Assembly (NCBI GenBank): GCA_018266335.1
Contig: JAFEAR010000079.1
Location: 1-11,461, forward strand
Length of the DNA: 11,461 nucleotides
From: Bdellovibrionales bacterium
GTDB lineage: Bacteria > Bdellovibrionota > UBA2428
Direction of reading: 5' to 3'
Each line of letters begins with the position of its first letter. The stretch's first letter is position 1. Position numbers and translations under genes: made by a program. A model generated the notes under the pieces. That model did no database searches. It was not told the origin of the DNA and saw only the letters and a list, made by a program, of their open reading frames with translations. Shown here piece by piece: positions 1 to 11,381 of this stretch.

Positions 1-493
1 GGATTTTCCTGGCAAGTTCCGTGTCGCCCTTACCGTCGATGAGGAGCGCGGACGATCCTCGTTCAAGATCGCGCACGAGCCACGGGAGGATAACGCTCTC
101 GGTTTTTCCTCGCCCTGTCGTGCCAATGATCTGAACGTGGCCGCACCGACTTTTATCGGAAACGTAAATCGGCGTTCCGTCGTCCATGTTCCCGGCAAAG
201 ACGCCGTTTGCACTCCAAACATGTCGCAGTCGTCCGACGTGTTCCTCGAAGGGCCTTGTCGCCTTGACGAGCTTTCGGATTCCAAGTGCCAGCAGCAGAA
301 GACACAGCACCCATGCACCGAAATAAATTTTCTCGTAGTTCCTAAAATAGAACGCGTTGATCGCATTCATCTTCTGCGACGCGACCGCTACACCCAGAAG
401 ACTCGCGATCCCGAGTGCTTCGGGAAGGCTAATGTCTCTCTGGGGTGTGGTGGAACCGTTATGGCTCCCCTTGTTGTTGTCTTGATAAAACAT
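1..493 (-). CDS. Type IV coupling protein (VirD4/TraD-like), N-terminal part
   Basis: Partial gene that runs off the left edge; 164 codons are visible. Type IV coupling proteins are inner-membrane hexameric ATPases that bring a relaxase-DNA complex to a type IV secretion channel. Translating the minus strand gives a polar N-terminus, a hydrophobic stretch near residues 24-40, a strong membrane segment at about 58-75 (GAWVLCLLLLALGI), then a soluble part with Walker A GTTGRGKT (124-131) followed by LLIDGKGDTEL (150-160), which is the typical order in this family. The ATG at 493 is preceded by a strong ribosome binding site (AGGAGGGG, 7 bases upstream), and an in-frame TAG lies at 509-511, so the start is well fixed. 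The Walker B and C-terminal parts are outside the window. Family level is secure; whether it is closer to VirD4, TraD or TraG cannot be told from this part. Confidence 0.88.
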   Translation of the reverse strand, partial: MFYQDNNKGSHNGSTTPQRDISLPEALGIASLLGVAVASQKMNAINAFYFRNYEKIYFGAWVLCLLLLALGIRKLVKATRPFEEHVGRLRHVWSANGVFAGNMDDGTPIYVSDKSRCGHVQIIGTTGRGKTESVILPWLVRDLERGSSALLIDGKGDTELARKI

Positions 494-2887: not shown

Positions 2888-3142
2888 ATGGCAAAGGGCT
2901 ATTCCGCGATTCCCGCAAAACACCGCTCGCAGGTACGACGTGAGTTAGAGAATTTCATGAACGGTTTCAAAAGACGACGCGTCGAGTTGGACCTTACCCA
3001 AGAAGCGATGGCTGAAGGAACCGGCGTTAGTATCGAGACTATTCGCAATATCGAGCAGCATCGCCGGGTGCCGAGCCTTCCGCTGCTTTTTCATTTAGCC
3101 CGGTATTTGGAGCTAAAGCTTTCATCCTCCAAAGACTCTTAA
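2888..3142 (+). CDS. Small Xre-family helix-turn-helix transcriptional regulator
   Basis: 84 residues. A Cro/C1-type helix-turn-helix occupies about 26-76: GFKRRRVELDLTQEAMAE (helices 1-2), then GVSIETIRNIEQHRRVPSL (recognition helix and the typical 'E..RR.PS' ending), then LLFHLARYLELKL. The first 24 residues are an extra basic/polar extension. The start is uncertain: ATG 2888 directly abuts AAAGGG, which is too close for a normal ribosome binding site, so the message may be leaderless or start at ATG 2957 (residue 24), which would still keep the whole domain. It probably binds the inverted repeat at 2836-2868 and represses itself and the divergent receiver gene (inference). The hipB gene further downstream encodes a second, only distantly similar HTH protein. 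Confidence 0.8.
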   Translation: MAKGYSAIPAKHRSQVRRELENFMNGFKRRRVELDLTQEAMAEGTGVSIETIRNIEQHRRVPSLPLLFHLARYLELKLSSSKDS

Positions 3143-3309: not shown

Positions 3310-3612
3310 ATGAATCAATTGAAAAGCCCCCAAGAATTGGAATTTTTACTAGGCGAAAATCTAAAAAGGCTTCGTTTACAAAAGAACCTAGACCAAAAGT
3401 CCCTCTCAGAGCGTGCAGGCGTCAGCCTGACCGCTCTGAAGCATCTGGAGTCGGGCCGGGCCACCCTCAAGACGCTGGTGCGTGTGGTGCGCGCCCTAGA
3501 TCGCCAGGATTGGCTAGGCAGCCTGGCTCCCCAGGTCAGCGTTAATCCGCTTCACATGCTCAAAACGGCTGCTCCCCGGCAGCGAGCCAGAAAGCGGGCA
3601 AGAAATCCGTGA
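3310..3612 (+). CDS. hipB: HipB-like antitoxin, Xre-family HTH
   Basis: 100 residues, in the usual range for HipB-type antitoxins. The helix-turn-helix spans about 12-66: FLLGENLKRLRLQKNLDQ, then SLSERAGVSLTALKHLESGR and ATLKTLVRVVRAL. After it, DWLGSLAPQVSVNPLHMLK (68-85) has the form seen in HipB-like regulators paired with HipA, and the tail (86-99) is strongly basic. The protein should form a dimer that binds the palindrome upstream and holds the HipA kinase inactive. The ATG has no clear ribosome binding site. Its stop overlaps the hipA GTG by 4 bases (GTGA), so translation of toxin and antitoxin is probably coupled. Function is assigned by family and by the adjacent hipA. Confidence 0.87.
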   Translation: MNQLKSPQELEFLLGENLKRLRLQKNLDQKSLSERAGVSLTALKHLESGRATLKTLVRVVRALDRQDWLGSLAPQVSVNPLHMLKTAAPRQRARKRARNP

Positions 3613-4940
3613 AAAAATCGCGCAGCAAAAAGAAACCCAAAGCCACGCCCTACAAACGCGTTGAGCGGGTTGAAGTCTACATTTGGGAAAAATTCGTGGG
3701 TGCCGTAGCACTCGACGCCAATCTAGGTTTCTACGTCTTTGCTTATGACCCCACCTTCGGGAAAAGCGGCGTCGAACTCTCTCCCATCCATATGCCTCTT
3801 CGGGATGATGAGACGCCCTATGTCTTCACCGATCTGCCCGAACTCACCTTTAAGCGCCTCCCGCCGATGCTTGCCGATGCGCTTCCCGATGACTTCGGTA
3901 ACGCGCTAATCGACAGCTACATGGCGGGCCTTGGTATCTCGAAAGGTCAAATCACGGCGCTTGATCGCTTGGCTTACATGGGCAAACGATCCATGGGCGC
4001 ACTTGAATTCAAACCCACCCGAGGCCCCAGAGCCCAAAAGCCCCACGTCATCGAAATGAGCACGCTCGTGACCGAGGCCAGAAAAGCCGTACATGGACAG
4101 ATCGACAGCGACGGTCATGCGCAAGCCGCCCTTAGAAGCATCATTGACGTGGGCACCTCCGCAGGAGGCGCCCGCGCCAAGGCCGTCATCGCCTGGAACG
4201 AGAAGACTCAGGAAATTCGTTCCGGCCAAGTTGAGGTGCCCGAAGGGTTCGAGCATTGGCTCTTGAAGTTCGACGGTATGGGACATGACAAAGAACTCGG
4301 CGCCTCCCAGGAATATGGGCGCGTTGAGTACGCCTACTATCTGATGGCTAAGGCCGCCGGAATCGACATGTCCGAATCACGGTTACTCGAAGAAAATGGC
4401 CGAGCTCATTTCATGACCCGCCGTTTTGACCGCGCGAAAGGCAACCAGAAGCACCACATCCAAAGCCTATGCGCAATGAGCCAGCTCGATTACAAGAAGA
4501 AGTCCACGAACTCCTACGAACAACTTTTCATGACGATTGAACAGCTCGCACTCGGCTACGAAGCCAAAGCCGAAGCCTTTCGCCGCATGGCTTTCAATCT
4601 GATGGGCCGAAACTGCGACGACCATACGAAGAACTTCGCTTTTTTGAGGCGACAGGGCGGCCCGTGGGAACTGGCTCCGGCCTTTGACGTGACCTTCGCG
4701 CATAACCCCAAAGGTGAGTGGACTCACCAGCATCTCATGTCGGTGAACGGCAAGTTCAAGGGCTTTGAGCCAGACGATCTACAATCCATCGCGGATCGCT
4801 TCGGCGTCGGCGAATCCAAGGCCATCGTCGGGCAAGCGCGCGAAGCCATCTCAAAATGGGCGATCTTTGCCAAGAAGGCGGGCGTGTCGGGCGACGAAGT
4901 AACTCGTATTAAAAAACTACATCTAACATTCAGAGAATAG
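3609..4940 (+). CDS. hipA: HipA-type serine/threonine kinase toxin
   Basis: 443 residues, the normal length for HipA. HipA kinases phosphorylate aminoacyl-tRNA synthetases (GltX in E. coli) and cause growth arrest and persistence; the target here is unknown. A HipA N-subdomain covers about 17-131 (EVYIWEKFVGAVAL at its start, LPDDFGNALID inside). The kinase core follows: the Gly-rich/ATP loop VGTSAGGARAK (181-191), where S184 aligns with the autophosphorylated Ser150 of E. coli HipA; the ATP-binding lysine K220 in WLLKFDG; the RRFDR motif (271-275); the catalytic NCDDHTKN (335-342), with D337 as base and N342 for metal; and APAFD with D360 as the second metal ligand. All key residues are intact, so it should be active. 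Extra Lys/Arg residues make the N-terminus (1-20) strongly basic. Start is GTG 3609, overlapping hipB by 4 bases. The next gene begins 4 bases after the stop. Confidence 0.93.
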   Translation: MKKSRSKKKPKATPYKRVERVEVYIWEKFVGAVALDANLGFYVFAYDPTFGKSGVELSPIHMPLRDDETPYVFTDLPELTFKRLPPMLADALPDDFGNALIDSYMAGLGISKGQITALDRLAYMGKRSMGALEFKPTRGPRAQKPHVIEMSTLVTEARKAVHGQIDSDGHAQAALRSIIDVGTSAGGARAKAVIAWNEKTQEIRSGQVEVPEGFEHWLLKFDGMGHDKELGASQEYGRVEYAYYLMAKAAGIDMSESRLLEENGRAHFMTRRFDRAKGNQKHHIQSLCAMSQLDYKKKSTNSYEQLFMTIEQLALGYEAKAEAFRRMAFNLMGRNCDDHTKNFAFLRRQGGPWELAPAFDVTFAHNPKGEWTHQHLMSVNGKFKGFEPDDLQSIADRFGVGESKAIVGQAREAISKWAIFAKKAGVSGDEVTRIKKLHLTFRE

Positions 4941-4973
4941 CTTTGTGGATAAGGAGAAGCTTCGCCGTTTTTT
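4935..4973 (+). repeat. Direct repeat copy 1, at hipA end / methyltransferase start
   Basis: 39 bases running from the end of hipA through its stop codon into the first ten codons of the methyltransferase gene. It matches 5638-5676 at 36 of 39 positions; shared blocks include GAATAGCTTTGTG and AAGGAGAAGCTTCGCCG. The two copies are 703 bases apart and bracket exactly the methyltransferase gene. Confidence 0.85.
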
Positions 4974-5583
4974 AGTATCCTCGACAACAGACCGGATAAT
5001 TTCGATATCTCTTGGGGGCTATTGGCTTTATCAATCCGTGCAATGGACCGCTGAAAATCGCAAGGGTTGGCCGCTGATGACCCTTATCGTTAGTTCACTT
5101 GTTCAAAACCTTTTGATTGCCTTCAGAAGGAAGCCCGAGAGTATTTCCCTCAAGCCCGCGCATTGGTTCATCGCGATGCTAGCTTGTTACTGGTGGCTCC
5201 TTTTTGGGGGCTTTTCAAATCAAGGGCAGTCGCTTGTTGCAAAGAACGTCACGGATGCCCTGTCCACGGTCGGCCTCGTCTTGGTTTTGAGTGCCAAGTT
5301 AAGTCTGTGGCGAAGTTTTGGAATCGTCCCCGCCAAGAGGAAACTTCAAACAACGGGTCTCTATTCGATTGTTCGTCATCCAATTTATGGAATGTGGTTT
5401 CTCTTTTTGAATACGAGCTTTCTCTTGTCGTCTTTTTCTTTGGTCAATCTAGCCATTACCTCAGGTTCAATTGCTGCTAGCGTCGGTCAGGCGCTAGCGG
5501 AAGAAGATTTCTTTAAGAACGATCTTGAGTATCGGGCTTACAGGGCGAGAGTAAAAAAGAGATTTATTCCGTTTGTCGTGTAG
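4945..5583 (+). CDS. Isoprenylcysteine carboxyl methyltransferase-like membrane protein
   Basis: 212 residues, integral membrane. Hydrophobic segments lie at about 16-33, 44-60, 74-90, 105-121 and 149-170. The C-terminal third carries the hallmark of the ICMT/PEMT (phospholipid methyltransferase) family: TTGLYSIVRHPIYGMWF (136-152) with the SAM-binding R144-H145-P146, then EEDFFKNDLEYRAYRARVKKRFIPF (186-210) with the conserved Glu pair and the Y-x-x-Y region. Family members methylate lipids or thiols at the membrane using S-adenosylmethionine; bacterial substrates are mostly unknown. GTG 4945 is 4 bases after the hipA stop, so it probably belongs to the hipBA operon, which is unusual company. 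The first 39 bases around the start are duplicated at 5638-5676. No strong ribosome binding site precedes the GTG, consistent with translation coupled to hipA. Confidence 0.82.
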   Translation: MDKEKLRRFLVSSTTDRIISISLGGYWLYQSVQWTAENRKGWPLMTLIVSSLVQNLLIAFRRKPESISLKPAHWFIAMLACYWWLLFGGFSNQGQSLVAKNVTDALSTVGLVLVLSAKLSLWRSFGIVPAKRKLQTTGLYSIVRHPIYGMWFLFLNTSFLLSSFSLVNLAITSGSIAASVGQALAEEDFFKNDLEYRAYRARVKKRFIPFVV

Positions 5584-5698: not shown

Positions 5699-6973
5699 TT
5701 AAAATATCCAAAAAATAGTTCCGGAAATTAGCGTCGGAAGCAACGCGCCTCGAAAAAGCCCCCAGGGGCTAATTCCATCGACTCCAAAAGCTCGATTGAG
5801 AATTCCAAATCCAGCCGGATTTGGAGCGTTGGCAATCACGGTGAGTCCGCCGCCAACCACGCTGCCTGCAACTAGCGCGTATTTCGAGCTGTCGGAAAGA
5901 GTGGGCACAAGCGATCCAAGATAGGTAAGCGCAGCATTGTCGGTAATCGCCGTAAGGGAAATGGCTCCAATGTATAGAGGCAACGCCGTGATTCTCTCGA
6001 TGAGGGATTCAAGCCACCAACGTTGAGGCCCGCCTATGACAATAAGTCCGCCGAGGAAAAACGAGACCAGCATCCCCTCCTTTAGTTTTAGAGAGTGATG
6101 AAACTCGCGAGTCACGGAAACAAGGCCCAAAAAAAACAGAAAAAGGGCCATGAACACGGTTATGTGATGCGAAGAGGCGATGATAAGAGCTAAAAAGGCG
6201 GTATGCGCCAAACAAATTCCAAAGGAAGATTTGCTGGCAGACTCTGCCTCGCCATGAATGCCGCTCGCAGCCAATAATTCCTGTCGAAATCGGTAAGCTA
6301 CGGCTGATGTAGAGATGAGGATGGCCACCACTCCCTTCCATCCGAAGTTCTTAAGCATGAAAACCGTGCTCCAATTCCATCTCCCCGCGACCATAAGAAT
6401 CGGAGGTGCCGCAAAATTCGTCAGCGTGCCTCCGATGGAAATGTTGACGAACAGAAGCCCCAAGGTCGCGTATTTGAGATTTGAAGAGAACCGAGCCTTA
6501 AAAACGCGATCAAGTAGCAATAATGCGCTCACCGTCATGGCTGCTGGCTCTGTAATGAGGCTCCCCATAAGCGGACCAACCACCAAACAGCTCACGTAAA
6601 ACGCGAAAAAAGGCGGCATGGGCACCTTCGACGCGATTAAGGCGATAACGGCATCTGCGATCTGAAGGATAGGTCGGGTTGAACAGACAGTCATGATCAC
6701 GAAAACAAACGCTGCCTCGGTAAAATCTCTATCCTCCAAGTACCTGACGGACGCCCCAATCCCCTCTGTCCCGATTAGCACCATCATAAAAACCGCAGCC
6801 CATAGTCCAAACACCACTTCCACTTCGCCCAGAAGATGGAAGATGTTTCCTCGAATCGAATTTTTGGGCGAGCGCTGCGAAAAATGAATGAATTTTTTTA
6901 CGAGAAAAGTGTGAAGTATCGCTAAACCAAAGAGAAAGGTGGCACACAGTTCCGAGGTGCGTGACAGCGTCAT
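5699..6973 (-). CDS. Putative Na+/H+ antiporter (ion transporter superfamily)
   Basis: 424 residues and almost entirely hydrophobic, with roughly ten or more membrane segments. Motifs in order: GEVEVVFGLWAAVF (49-62), SLITEPAAMTVSALLLLD (138-155), GGTLTNFAAPPILMVAG (181-197), AITDNAALTYLGSLVP (342-357) and GGGLTVIANAPNPAGFGIL (374-392). The paired 'TEPAA..' / 'TDNAALTYLG' and 'GGTLTNFAAPP' / 'NAPNPAGF' motifs in two halves are what I know from the putative Na+/H+ antiporter family related to NhaD/ArsB-type ion transporters, where such broken-helix segments form the ion site. Transport specificity is predicted, not shown. ATG 6973 overlaps the stop of the MscS gene (ATGA, 4 bases), so it is the third gene of the operon. 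Its 3' end is convergent with the methyltransferase gene; no terminator is evident. Confidence 0.82.
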   Translation of the reverse strand: MTLSRTSELCATFLFGLAILHTFLVKKFIHFSQRSPKNSIRGNIFHLLGEVEVVFGLWAAVFMMVLIGTEGIGASVRYLEDRDFTEAAFVFVIMTVCSTRPILQIADAVIALIASKVPMPPFFAFYVSCLVVGPLMGSLITEPAAMTVSALLLLDRVFKARFSSNLKYATLGLLFVNISIGGTLTNFAAPPILMVAGRWNWSTVFMLKNFGWKGVVAILISTSAVAYRFRQELLAASGIHGEAESASKSSFGICLAHTAFLALIIASSHHITVFMALFLFFLGLVSVTREFHHSLKLKEGMLVSFFLGGLIVIGGPQRWWLESLIERITALPLYIGAISLTAITDNAALTYLGSLVPTLSDSSKYALVAGSVVGGGLTVIANAPNPAGFGILNRAFGVDGISPWGLFRGALLPTLISGTIFWIF

Positions 6974-7824
6974 GACTTCGCCTCCGTATTCGTAGAGCTT
7001 CCGGCGCCCTCCACCATGAGCGAAAGCGTGGGGCGCGAAACGCCAGCCTTGATGAGCGCCTCATTTCCTCTTACCAGCAAATCAGTCTGGAGGGTCTTTT
7101 CGAATCTTACGTCAATAACGTAGCATTTCAGACGCGCTTGCATGGCTATGCGATTAGCTATGGCGAGCTCAGTCATAACGACGTTGACGGGCTTCTTCAG
7201 AAACACATAGCGGCTCGTGGCAGCGGTTTCGTAGAGGATCTCACTGACTTCGCGCAGGTTTGAGGCCAGATCGACGTGAAAATCAACCTCGATCATCATG
7301 TCCAAAGCTCCGGAATTTCCCGAGGTGACCGCATCCGACAGAAATCGATTATTGGGGATGGTGATCGTGCTGTCGTCGAGAGTAACGAGCCTCACGGCGC
7401 GTAGACCGATTGTGGCTACTTCTCCATACATTCCGTCGTAGGTCACGCGATCTCCGACTTGAAATGGCCGATCAAAAATCAAAATAAGTCCGGCTACCAC
7501 CGAAGCCACGAGGTCTTTCATGGAGAGCCCGAGAGCGACGGCTAATGTACCGCTGACCGTTAGCAAAAGGGCTTTAGGTGGGTTTACTACCCCAAAAAAA
7601 ATGTAGCCGCCGCCGAGTATGTAAATCAGGAACGACAAAACCGTCACGACTTGCGCAATGAGGAGGCGCTTGGATGGATACCTACCATGAACTTTCGTTC
7701 CAAAATTCGCCACCACTCTAGCGACGACACCGAGTAGAGTTACTCCCAAGAGCAAGAAGAATAACTTCGAGAAACTAAACAGTCCGGCGATACTGGCAAC
7801 TTGATCGAGATTGGCGTCATTCAT
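6970..7824 (-). CDS. MscS-family small-conductance mechanosensitive channel
   Basis: 284 residues, the length of a basic E. coli-type MscS. Three membrane helices are visible: about 16-38, 54-80 and 84-116. The third is the pore helix (LTVSGTLAVALGLSMKDLVA), rich in Gly/Ala as in MscS, followed by FDRPFQVGDRV (117-127), which opens the beta domain, then YGEVATIGLRAVRLVTLDD and the signature TIPNNRFL (155-162). The rest is the alpha/beta cytoplasmic cage domain. MscS channels are heptamers that open under membrane tension; some respond to ligands. The gene starts inside the 3' end of the preceding ATPase gene (8-base overlap) with no Shine-Dalgarno sequence before its ATG, so it is probably translated by ribosomes finishing the ATPase. 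That makes a physical or functional partnership with the ATPase likely (inference). Confidence 0.93.
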   Translation of the reverse strand: MNDANLDQVASIAGLFSFSKLFFLLLGVTLLGVVARVVANFGTKVHGRYPSKRLLIAQVVTVLSFLIYILGGGYIFFGVVNPPKALLLTVSGTLAVALGLSMKDLVASVVAGLILIFDRPFQVGDRVTYDGMYGEVATIGLRAVRLVTLDDSTITIPNNRFLSDAVTSGNSGALDMMIEVDFHVDLASNLREVSEILYETAATSRYVFLKKPVNVVMTELAIANRIAMQARLKCYVIDVRFEKTLQTDLLVRGNEALIKAGVSRPTLSLMVEGAGSSTNTEAKS

Positions 7825-10800
7825 GGAGGAAATTTTTTCCCAATAGATAAAAGTCTACGAAATACTGTGCGCGAGGACTTACGCGAAAGCGCTGGGCTTC
7901 GTCCCGCCATATCAATTCGGCGTCTTCCATTCGCTTCAGACCTCTTTTGATGACCGACTCCGAAATGCCCGTCACCATACGAAGTTCGATGAAGTCCAGA
8001 TTTTCATGCTTGGAGATCGCGGCGAGGATAAAAAGGGCGTCGTCGCTCAGTCCAATCGTCAAGCCTGAAGAGAGAAAACGCGGCACCCCGACGAGTATGG
8101 TTCGTTCGGAGGAATGATAATCGAGAGCTGTTAACCAGTAGACCAGAGCCGAGCGAGGATTTCCGCGAGACTGCCCCCAGAGCAACCTAAAAAACTGTAC
8201 TTCGGCTTGGGAACCAAGAGCCAATCCCTGCTCGGCCCCTTCGCTGTACGCCTTGATTTTGTCATCGAATCGCATTCCATAACCGCTTCGTTTTTGTCGC
8301 GACAGAATAAGCGACTGAATTTCTACGTCGGTCCACGGTCTGGCCTCCAAATCTCTTCCATAGAAGTGCTCACGTCCAAAAACGCCCTTCAAATAATTCC
8401 ATGAGCGGGAGTTCATAACGATGCACCAGAAAACATTGGACGTCTGAAGATTTACTATATTCTGTAACTCGCGATAGGCATCGAACGAACCGATCTTGGA
8501 CAAAAATAGATTTTGGGCATCGTCTAAAAAGATCACCATCTTTCTTGAAAGAGATTTGTCAAAATTCAAAAAGTCCGCACTACTCCTGAGACTCGTGCCG
8601 ACGCCGTCCCCCAGAAAACTCCAAAAGGTTTCTCGGGTCGTGGTTTTTGCCGGAACCGCGAGGGTGCGAAAAGCCACTTCAGACAAGTGTTCGGTAATAT
8701 GCTTCACTAGGGTGCTCTTCCCGAATCCACGATTGCCGTGCAAGATAATGGCATCTTCCTCCGATTGACCCGAATTCCATTCGTCGATGCTACGACGAAT
8801 TTCAGCTTCCGAAGAAAGTCGCGTTTCGATAAAATCTCCACAAGGCCAGCCGGAGCGAAAATCGAAAAACTTAATGTACTCGGCAGGGAGCGGAGTTGAA
8901 GATTTTTCGACGCTGCCCAGCTTCTGAAGTCGCTTCTTGAAAAATTCCGAGTTTATCCACTTTACAAAATCAAGCGCCGATAGAAAGCCCCAAAGGATTT
9001 TGAACAGATGAAACAAAAGAACAACAAGCAACAAAATCGGCGACAGCAGCACCGAGGCGATGCCCCCTTCAGCTTTACCGGCGAGAGTTTTCAGTCGCGA
9101 GAAGGGAGTGGCGCGAGCGGCATCCCGAATTTCCCGTTTCCATTCCGAACAAAAAACGAAGATCAGAAATATATTCAGATATCTAATAAGAAAACTTACC
9201 GCGGTGTAAACATAGGCTTCTCGCACGGCATTGGCGGTGGCGTGAACAACAATGGCTTCAATGAGCACTACGCGAGCAAAACGAAATGAACTTCGGCGGA
9301 CTTTTTCAGCGACCTCCTGAAACGACTCGGAACGCGTTTCGGAGAATATCGCGGTGAACGCCGAGCGTAGAATAAGGACCGCGATCCGGTACCATAGATA
9401 GAAGCGTACATACACGACCGCTTCGGTCAGCTCGCTAATATCGGTCTTAGCCAAGATGTTTTCAGCGACATGCGAGAGAATGACCATGCCAATCCATGGC
9501 AAGAAGGGATTTAACCTCACAATCCACAGGGCGATAGAAGTACGCCGCCGATAATCCAGCATCGAGCGATTGATGAGATTTCGTCGAAAAATGTCAACCT
9601 GCCGTTCAATCCATCTCAAACCGCGAAAAAAGACGAAGGGAAGTAGAAGCAGGGCGACGAGGAATATGGCCTGCTTCAGCAGATCAATCCAACCGCGAAA
9701 TCCCAGCGCAAGTTTGCGCTTGGTCTCGACAGTTTTAGAAATTGCCAGCGCAAAGCCCTTAAATGGAACAATTTTGATTTCCCGAACAACGTCACGAATC
9801 ACGGGTGAGCTGACCGTAAACAAATCGGTGCATTGATTGGCCCGACACTGATTAAACAGACGCGAACGAACGGCACCTGCTTTCAGCAACAATTCGGAAA
9901 TGAGTTCTTTTTCCTCCCTAGCATAGCGAACGCGGTCCCTTTCGACCGCGGCTAGACTTTGCGTGATGGAATTCATCGCCTGAGCGAGTTCCTGGACTTG
10001 GGGTGCCGCTTCGGCTTCGACCGCTAATGATATGTTGGGTGGCTGAGGGACTGAAAGGAAATCATGCGATGCATATAGGTCGAATACGTGGTCAACAAGA
10101 TCGCGCCATATCTCCGCTGCTCTACGATATCCGGATAGAGTGTGCTTAGGATCGCTCCCTTGATTTGGGCCACTGGCCGCCAAGCGAGAAAGCTCATCAG
10201 AAATGTCGCCATATTTCTTTGACTGCGCGACTTTATACTCGATGAACTTCAGTTGGCTCTCTTCTAGATCGACCAGATATTTCTGAGCTACGGCGAGGTC
10301 GCCTGCAATCTTCTTCGTTTCCGGACTTTCATCGGAGGAGGCGGTGGCTTCGGCCGTCTCAAATCTGACAAGCGCTTCTTCTCGGCGCTTGTCAACCGCC
10401 TGAGCTTGCGCACTGAGTTGAGCGAGACTTGTAGATTTGGATAGGTTTTGCTCGTAAATTTCAACCAGTCCCAGGCGGTCGTCCTCTGGAAGCGATAAAA
10501 ATTCAGCTTTAGCGTGGTCAATTGCAACTTGGGTTTCGAGAAGACTTAGGATGCTTCCCCGTTCTGCACTAGTGGCGCATAGAAGCCATTGCTGAAAGGG
10601 AGTGGCGAGTTCCAGTTTCTTCGCCGTAACTTGAGCTAGCTCGGCGGCCCGCGCTTTGACCGCCGACTCCTGATTCATATGAATGGAAAAGAGCGCGGCG
10701 ATCGGAACATTCCCACTTGTTCCTTTTTCTCGAAGTGATCGCAAAGCCTCTAGAGTGGCCTTTTGAAGACTAGCTTTCTCTTCGATAAGCCGGGAAAGAC

Positions 10801-10912
10801 TTGGCTCGAATTTGCATGCCTTATCCGCGGAGGCAACCGCGACAGGGGGGTGTGCCCAAAGGCTCAGTAAACAAAAGAACATTAATACGGCGCCGCGTGT
10901 CATCACCCTCAT
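7817..10912 (-). CDS. Giant membrane-anchored P-loop ATPase with helical periplasmic domain and winged helix
   Basis: 1031 residues; I do not recognise a named family. In order: a signal peptide (1-29, hydrophobic core AVLMFFCLLSLWA, likely cleavage after ASA at 27-29); a long helical, charged, probably coiled-coil periplasmic region (30-405) with C33, C112, C356 and C361; hydrophobic segments at about 412-429, 463-482, 498-520, 545-562, 568-588 and 615-643, with very basic loops after the first, third and fifth; then a P-loop NTPase with Walker A GNRGFGKST (726-734), Walker B MVIFLDDAQN (792-801) and a sensor-like stretch FWCIVMNSRSW (828-838); and a C-terminal winged helix (about 953-1020: LSDDALFILAAISKH, TGISESVIKRGLKRMEDAELI). 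The N-terminal half is laid out like MscK/MscM channels without their channel core, which the next gene encodes. ATG 10903 (residue 4) is an alternative start, with GAGGG 9 bases upstream; GAGGG abuts ATG 10912 directly. First gene of the operon. Confidence 0.8.
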   Translation of the reverse strand: MRVMTRGAVLMFFCLLSLWAHPPVAVASADKACKFEPSLSRLIEEKASLQKATLEALRSLREKGTSGNVPIAALFSIHMNQESAVKARAAELAQVTAKKLELATPFQQWLLCATSAERGSILSLLETQVAIDHAKAEFLSLPEDDRLGLVEIYEQNLSKSTSLAQLSAQAQAVDKRREEALVRFETAEATASSDESPETKKIAGDLAVAQKYLVDLEESQLKFIEYKVAQSKKYGDISDELSRLAASGPNQGSDPKHTLSGYRRAAEIWRDLVDHVFDLYASHDFLSVPQPPNISLAVEAEAAPQVQELAQAMNSITQSLAAVERDRVRYAREEKELISELLLKAGAVRSRLFNQCRANQCTDLFTVSSPVIRDVVREIKIVPFKGFALAISKTVETKRKLALGFRGWIDLLKQAIFLVALLLLPFVFFRGLRWIERQVDIFRRNLINRSMLDYRRRTSIALWIVRLNPFLPWIGMVILSHVAENILAKTDISELTEAVVYVRFYLWYRIAVLILRSAFTAIFSETRSESFQEVAEKVRRSSFRFARVVLIEAIVVHATANAVREAYVYTAVSFLIRYLNIFLIFVFCSEWKREIRDAARATPFSRLKTLAGKAEGGIASVLLSPILLLVVLLFHLFKILWGFLSALDFVKWINSEFFKKRLQKLGSVEKSSTPLPAEYIKFFDFRSGWPCGDFIETRLSSEAEIRRSIDEWNSGQSEEDAIILHGNRGFGKSTLVKHITEHLSEVAFRTLAVPAKTTTRETFWSFLGDGVGTSLRSSADFLNFDKSLSRKMVIFLDDAQNLFLSKIGSFDAYRELQNIVNLQTSNVFWCIVMNSRSWNYLKGVFGREHFYGRDLEARPWTDVEIQSLILSRQKRSGYGMRFDDKIKAYSEGAEQGLALGSQAEVQFFRLLWGQSRGNPRSALVYWLTALDYHSSERTILVGVPRFLSSGLTIGLSDDALFILAAISKHENLDFIELRMVTGISESVIKRGLKRMEDAELIWRDEAQRFRVSPRAQYFVDFYLLGKNFLHE

Positions 10913-11336: not shown

Positions 11337-11381
<45 letters not shown>

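Follow-up and report, generated by a model that had tools for sequence, protein, structure and literature searches.

The stretch of DNA analysed here (the window) comprises 11,461 nucleotides from a Bdellovibrionales bacterium (contig JAFEAR010000079.1 of assembly GCA_018266335.1) and carries three consecutive minus-strand genes, encoding a large membrane-anchored AAA+ ATPase (gene 1), a small MscS-type channel (gene 2) and a putative Na+/H+ antiporter (gene 3; Table 1). Gene 2 matches the MscS beta-domain family PF00924 well above its cut-off (E = 3.2e-18; 66 bits against 20.2), as expected for the minimal MscS channel proposed in the original prediction, and we regard it as a plain small MscS-type protein with predicted channel activity. 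Our results indicate that the ATPase and MscS genes form a real and widespread two-gene system to which the antiporter gene of the window is a local addition.

Table 1. Features of the three-gene module and the tRNA remnant, in window coordinates (ORF, open reading frame)
Feature	Positions	Strand	Basis
Gene 1, membrane-anchored AAA+ ATPase, 1031 amino acids	7817..10912	-	ORF, domain matches and model
Likely signal peptide, about residues 1-27	10832..10912	-	Read from sequence, no dedicated predictor; hydropathy peaks at residues 3-26; model helix 3-18
Predicted periplasmic domain, almost entirely of helices (about residues 28-400); Cys pairs 33/112 and 356/361	9713..10831	-	Model; periplasmic side presumed
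Hydrophobic stretch of about six long helices (residues 404-645)	8978..9703	-	Model and hydropathy
AAA+ core, residues 676-945, nearest fold ORC/Cdc6, also TnsC and NSF	8078..8887	-	Pfam, model and fold search
Walker A GNRGFGKST, residues 726-734	8711..8737	-	Lys in 49/50 family sequences, window included
Walker B ending DD, residues 792-798	8519..8539	-	Asp797 in 50/50; at 798, E in 25, D in 18 and N in 7
GNPR motif, residues 917-920, candidate sensor-2 region	8153..8164	-	GNP in 50/50, Arg in 42/50
C-terminal winged-helix domain, residues 950-1031	7820..8065	-	Weak MarR matches below cut-off; model
Overlap of 8 bases, ATGAATGA, ATPase stop and MscS start	7817..7824	-	Sequence; recurs in relatives
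Gene 2, small MscS-type channel of the ATPase-tied subfamily, 284 amino acids	6970..7824	-	ORF and profile matches
Overlap of 4 bases, ATGA, MscS stop and antiporter start; GGAGG just upstream	6970..6973	-	Sequence
Gene 3, putative Na+/H+ antiporter (PF07399), accessory, 424 amino acids	5699..6973	-	ORF and Pfam match
3' half of tRNA-Met, anticodon loop to CCA, no 5' half; likely attachment-site copy, outside the module	11338..11381	+	Recognised by eye

Pairing of the ATPase and MscS genes

The three genes had been predicted to overlap by 8 and 4 bases and to form one coupled unit. Their coordinates and both overlaps proved exact, and the first overlap is a recurrent trait of the family: the ORFs overlap in 72 of 75 ATPase–MscS junctions (window included), by 8 bases in 28, by 11 bases in 32 and by other lengths in the rest, with some overlaps possibly overstated because each ORF was started at its first ATG, GTG or TTG. 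With 72 of 75 junctions overlapping, the arrangement is more than chance; in the three others (L051, L059 and L079), 6 to 13 bases separate the ORFs. In the window, the start of gene 2 sits within the final codons of gene 1, and inspection of the sequence revealed no GGAGG-like site directly before it, so gene 2 is likely translated by termination-reinitiation. Gene 3 has a GGAGG a few bases 5' of its ATG. The prediction of one coupled unit is supported, and the ATPase and the channel are very probably translationally coupled. At three loci, a common small ORF of 81–87 amino acids (L006 9594–9839, L007 4308–4553, L008 7952–8215) overlaps the start of the ATPase ORF by 4 bases and might encode an extra subunit.

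When proteins were searched with gene 1, the matches numbered 20 including the window protein itself, and the closest relatives (P0002–P0005) were 45–51% identical. A single-sequence scan of genome contigs was without result; a profile of these 20 located 25 loci in named genomes. Most are in Bdellovibrionota, the remaining hosts being some Gammaproteobacteria (Methylovulum, a Methylococcaceae metagenome-assembled genome and others) and two metagenome-assembled genomes named Gallionella and Gallionellaceae. By sequence search, 23 of the 25 have MscS as the next gene downstream, and at L014 a profile search made the first 61 channel residues visible there. Neither the single-sequence nor the profile scan found a copy of the ATPase on viral contigs.

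In whole-genome searches, 67 of 368 Bdellovibrionota genomes proved to carry the ATPase, as did 5 of 369 genomes drawn from the class to which one gammaproteobacterial locus belongs. The MscS subfamily of gene 2 was found in 63 of the 368, all 63 of them among the 67 with the ATPase, at a cut-off of E 1e-45 or better (all members above 250 bits), and the co-occurrence claim holds at that cut-off only. In the four genomes with the ATPase and no matching MscS (G172, G209, G228 and G272), the ATPase gene lies at a contig edge, and G209, the genome of L014, still carries the start of the channel. Among ATPase genes with their 3' end present on the contig, counting that of the window, MscS followed directly in 75 of 76; this set is what remains of 83 deduplicated ORF rows after exclusion of six that run off the contig (L047, L084, L085, L091, L098 and L099) and the second piece of a broken gene (L076), and a single genome may contribute more than one row. 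The sole exception, L025, is followed by an ORF cut by the contig end, in which we found no Pfam family above cut-off and no MscS in a PDB search. A search of the class of the L025 genome with the AAA part of its ATPase hit 16 places, spread over 12 of 52 genomes, and in the 15 other than L025 (L122–L136), which hold more distant ATPase genes, MscS was directly downstream in every case (13 by the MscS profile, L129 and L134 by PF00924 above cut-off). The ATPase and MscS genes are therefore a near-obligate pair.

The two genes are also co-inherited. Across 64 pairs, the ATPase and channel distance matrices correlate with r = 0.89, and the highest value among 2000 label permutations was 0.11. 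Mean pairwise identity over these pairs is 52% for the channel compared with 27% for the ATPase, so the channel is the more constrained partner. The system is apparently undescribed: no paper on the ATPase–MscS pair was found in the open-licence literature, subscription literature lying mostly outside this search, which is not proof of its being unpublished. For one group of Bdellovibrionota, a published comparison records mscS (KEGG K03442) in 89% of marine genomes but in 11% of non-marine ones (PMC8067016); this bias fits an osmotic role, but may concern a different mscS. A second paper mentions neither MscS nor the word "mechanosensitive" (PMC7159879).

The ATPase and its links to antiporters and Trk

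Gene 1 matches AAA_22 above cut-off (E = 2.5e-8), and both its Walker A and Walker B motifs are intact. When the model was compared with the PDB, the best fold matches of the AAA+ core were AAA+ proteins of the ORC/Cdc6 type, with TnsC and NSF also among them; the core is followed in the model by a winged helix, for which the MarR-type Pfam matches are weak and below cut-off. The original prediction had suggested a STAND/AAA-like NTPase, of which we reject the STAND label: the nSTAND3, 5 and 6, NACHT and NB-ARC models all fell below their cut-offs, Avs4 scored 11.3 against 1500 bits, and the best folds are those of the ORC/Cdc6 type.

Cysteines mark the predicted periplasmic domain. Cys33 and Cys112 are both present in all 39 of the family sequences that keep that stretch, the other 11 of 50 being gapped at one or both positions, and Cys356 and Cys361 occur together in 11 of 50 and are both missing from the other 39, with no mixed case. 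The helical domain is thus probably disulfide-bonded. The database copy of the gene 1 protein (P0001; 953 amino acids) is 78 residues shorter, presumably called from a later start, and would then lose the signal peptide and Cys33.

Gene 3 matches PF07399 over nearly its full length (residues 8–424 on model positions 3–419 of 419; E = 4.6e-164), which makes Na+/H+ exchange its putative function. No relative of this antiporter was found in the other pair loci, L001–L140, many of which have only 1.5 kilobases of flank; one further match, L141, is a locus fetched by way of the antiporter itself. Because PF07399 adjoins no other pair in this set, the trio of the window is a local elaboration of the conserved pair. 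Relatives of gene 3 do occur on four plasmids (Azoarcus, Variovorax and other Comamonadaceae), and no mscS is annotated near the relative in the one plasmid inspected.

A different antiporter family has joined the ATPase elsewhere. At L025, the weakest of the 25 loci, the ATPase is 1493 amino acids long, lies behind trkH and carries an N-terminal Na_H_Exchanger domain (PF00999; E = 3.4e-15 with the first 453 residues scanned alone, and not reported in a scan of the whole protein). PF00999 is likewise found at the N-terminus of the ATPase in L125, L126, L128, L130 and L134, which are all the ORFs above 1300 amino acids among L122–L136. A Pfam scan found none in L122, L129, L132, L135 or L136, and the remaining five, some of them cut by contig ends, were unmatched by queries with the antiporter parts of L125 and L025. 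When the AAA part of L125 served as a database query, nine proteins came back, L125 among them; eight of the nine have PF00999, and two of these antiporter–ATPase fusions are named KefB by their source. At L122, the gene order is trkA-trkH-ATPase-mscS, with 9 bases between trkH and the ATPase gene; Trk queries of L001–L141 matched in L122 and L025 only. In L025 (942–5423), about 750 residues between the antiporter and AAA domains match no Pfam family.

Antiporters have therefore been joined to the system by two routes, PF07399 as a third gene in the window and PF00999 as a fusion in the other lineage. That two lineages attach different antiporter families is the most telling observation about function, and the Trk and antiporter links point to K+ and osmotic balance. 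The original prediction had made the antiporter part of the module and had counted ATPase homologues routinely lacking the channel and the antiporter as evidence against it. In part such evidence exists, since the antiporter of the window has no relative at the other pair loci; the mscS gene follows almost everywhere, and the antiporter theme recurs in another lineage, whereas the gene order of the window is local.

A possible ATPase-controlled ion-flux module

We consider it reasonably probable (about 60%) that the operon is an ATPase-controlled osmotic or cation-flux module. The idea of an NTPase-linked ion-flux module, put forward for the window, gains from an ATPase–MscS pairing conserved far beyond it. 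We read the ATPase as a dedicated regulator that forms a physical complex with its MscS channel; this complex, the topology, the direction of control, the sensed signal, the moved ions and gating by ATP are all inferred. Gene 1 would be an inner-membrane protein with its helical periplasmic domain outside and its ORC/Cdc6-like AAA+ domain and winged helix in the cytoplasm, held by a membrane anchor able to touch the channel. The periplasmic domain would sense the state of the envelope or turgor, and the ATP/ADP state and oligomerisation of the AAA+ domain would report the energy or ionic state of the cytoplasm. Together these inputs would decide how the MscS heptamer gates, or how it assembles; K+ and other solutes would be released only under the right conditions, and in the window the Na+/H+ antiporter would exchange cations for protons. 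A more specific version, which we advance only tentatively, has an initiator-type AAA+ ring or arm sitting on the heptamer, where its ATP state and the periplasmic sensor would open, close or desensitise the channel, and has cation/H+ antiporters and Trk repeatedly recruited, one ATPase coordinating K+ uptake, exchange and release.

MscS channels are passive safety valves gated by membrane tension. A channel gene that is almost always accompanied by the gene for a dedicated membrane AAA+ ATPase suggests that some MscS valves are actively controlled in an energy-linked manner; the recurrent antiporter partners give a hint of the purpose. All parts come from known families; the step of ATP gating, if true, would be a new kind of channel control, and the pair offers a simple two-gene system for asking how an AAA+ protein could gate an ion channel. 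Many Bdellovibrionota are predators, and unnamed "AAA family ATPase" genes in this group and in several Pseudomonadota gain a testable function.

Several known systems resemble parts of this one. E. coli MscK and MscM have a signal peptide, a periplasmic helical domain and membrane helices before an MscS core, and provide regulated ion release; each, however, is one polypeptide without an ATPase, whereas here sensor region and channel are two ORFs, and the N-terminal region of the window family showed no homology to MscK in profile comparison. Gene 2 is like the small channel MscS itself, but its subfamily is found only in ATPase-bearing genomes (among the 368 from Bdellovibrionota, at the cut-off used). 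Unlike ORC/Cdc6 proteins and TnsC, the AAA+ domain is anchored in the membrane, follows a periplasmic or antiporter domain and is linked to a channel gene. Kef K+/H+ antiporters and Trk (TrkA/TrkH) also place cation flux under nucleotide-linked control, a likeness underlined by the two KefB names and by the trk genes adjoining two distant pairs, but they do so with RCK/TrkA-N nucleotide domains rather than AAA+. A Kef antiporter system is defined by Na_H_Exchanger (PF00999) with a TrkA-N regulatory domain; a Pfam scan of the three window proteins matched neither, PF00999 being confined to the distant fusions, and the window antiporter belongs to PF07399 and not to Kef.

Some observations weigh against an ATPase-controlled flux module. 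Its ionic role rests on few cases, with PF07399 beside a single pair and trkH in two loci only, and the neighbours of 54 pairs are otherwise diverse. The MscS subfamily as delimited here depends on the chosen cut-off of E 1e-45. Loss of Cys33 and Cys112 tracks loss of the whole stretch, which is conservation more than covariation. ATP hydrolysis may have been lost in some homologues, as the second acidic position of Walker B is Asn in 7 of 50. Finally, the topology of the ATPase is unsettled: an even number of six helices after the periplasmic domain, as modelled, would put the AAA+ domain outside, and a cytoplasmic AAA+ domain needs an odd number of crossings.

The alternative that fares best, though we think it improbable, is that the AAA+ protein serves to insert, assemble or remove the MscS channel and has no moment-to-moment gating role. 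The conserved ATP-binding motifs, the strict pairing, the translation of the ATPase just ahead of the channel and the presence of NSF among the fold matches would all suit such an assembly or quality-control partner. MscS channels, however, assemble unaided, and a periplasmic domain of about 370 residues and fusions to antiporters have no obvious use in a chaperone. Slightly less probable still is a regulator that, with the logic of ToxR or CadC, which bind DNA from the membrane, would use its AAA+ and winged-helix domains to control osmotic genes, the mscS pairing reflecting co-regulation only. The winged helix and the ORC/Cdc6/TnsC fold are both often DNA-binding, but winged helices also serve as protein-protein modules, and strict linkage to one MscS subfamily would be unusual for a regulator.

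We hold it quite unlikely that the system is an abortive-infection or conflict module, carried as cargo of integrative elements, whose NTPase senses invasion and opens MscS to depolarise or kill the cell. Anti-phage defence had been raised in the original prediction, and the tRNA 3' half and TraD-like fragment of the window, the pairs on plasmids, the patchy distribution (67 of 368 genomes) and a weak NCBIfam match to an anti-phage protein (17 against 790 bits, far below cut-off) are in keeping with it. Nevertheless, PADLOC matched gene 1 only weakly and in part, at E 0.005 or worse, and left genes 2 and 3 without a match, just 2 of 56 other loci hold a whole tRNA, the 25 commonest of the 144 neighbour families of 54 pairs include no integrase or defence family, though a ResIII helicase gene adjoins the L132 pair, and the Trk and antiporter links fit homeostasis better. 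Least likely is a split MscK, in which the N-terminal half of the ATPase would descend from the MscK/MscM sensor region separated from its channel: the order of parts is alike, E. coli MscK comes 4th and 24th among the Foldseek matches, and a set of five distant relatives was weakly positive, reaching 81% over 143 columns against MscK (negative controls below 1%), but neither Foldseek match reaches significance (E 0.59 and 1.8, probability below 0.1) and the N-terminal profile of the window family itself gave a probability of 1.4% or less, with positive controls at 98.8 and 99.1%, so that the split form envisaged in the original prediction is not supported as a matter of descent.

Genomic surroundings of the pair

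The trio had also been taken for cargo beside a tRNA attachment site. This is likely for the window, which carries the tRNA-Met 3' half, and is not supported as a general property, given the scarcity of whole tRNAs at other loci. ARAGORN and Rfam found no whole tRNA in the window, and when the half was compared with the whole tRNA-Met of L013, only 21 bases around the anticodon aligned locally. At the opposite end of the window, 2–493 (minus strand) encodes a TraD/VirD4-like coupling protein, of which the window edge leaves only the N-terminal part, with weak matches to SXT and TOL-type TraD and no match in the plasmid collection. With the tRNA-Met half at one end and the TraD-like fragment at the other, the window copy is likely to be part of an integrated element. 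The ten ORFs scanned included no recognisable integrase.

Three alphaproteobacterial plasmids (two from Novosphingobium and one from Caulobacter) carry the pair, with 94–109 bits for the ATPase profile and 245–272 bits for the channel profile; two of the three pairs were found via MscS and are not independent evidence of pairing. The pair on the Novosphingobium US6-1 plasmid consists of WP_007014233.1 and WP_039857743.1. In the two annotated plasmids, RefSeq names an AAA family ATPase or ATP-binding protein and then a mechanosensitive channel, and the Caulobacter plasmid has two mscS genes. A second, different MscS gene follows the pair at L001 (12884–13765) and L140 (4693–5631).

In 23 of 54 cases, the gene after the pair has the same orientation and is no more than 50 bases away. 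Families among 97 neighbours of these pairs included Phenol_MetA_deg (5), a second MscS (4) and MerC (4), and no recurrent third partner appeared among the 25 commonest families. The 97 come from 99 ORFs, picked by length rather than by a gene finder; the two excluded were a fragment of the broken L076 ATPase gene and an L093 ORF that is very long. As to whether the system tends to lie near integrases, tRNAs or defence genes, the window and the plasmid pairs are mobile-like cases, and the 97 neighbours and the 56 tRNA scans show no such trend. At one distant pair (L132 8920–11946), a ResIII/DEAD helicase gene overlaps the end of mscS by 4 bases.

The plus strand of the window holds further genes beyond the module. 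A 397-amino-acid protein (1056–2249) has a mid-protein stretch resembling sigma-70 region 4, below family cut-offs, and one helix-turn-helix gene lies at 2888–3142. At 3310–4940, another helix-turn-helix gene overlaps a HipA-type kinase gene by 4 bases, forming a HipBA-like toxin-antitoxin pair, and directly after hipA (4945–5583), with weak ICMT and PEMT matches below cut-off, comes a membrane methyltransferase-like gene.

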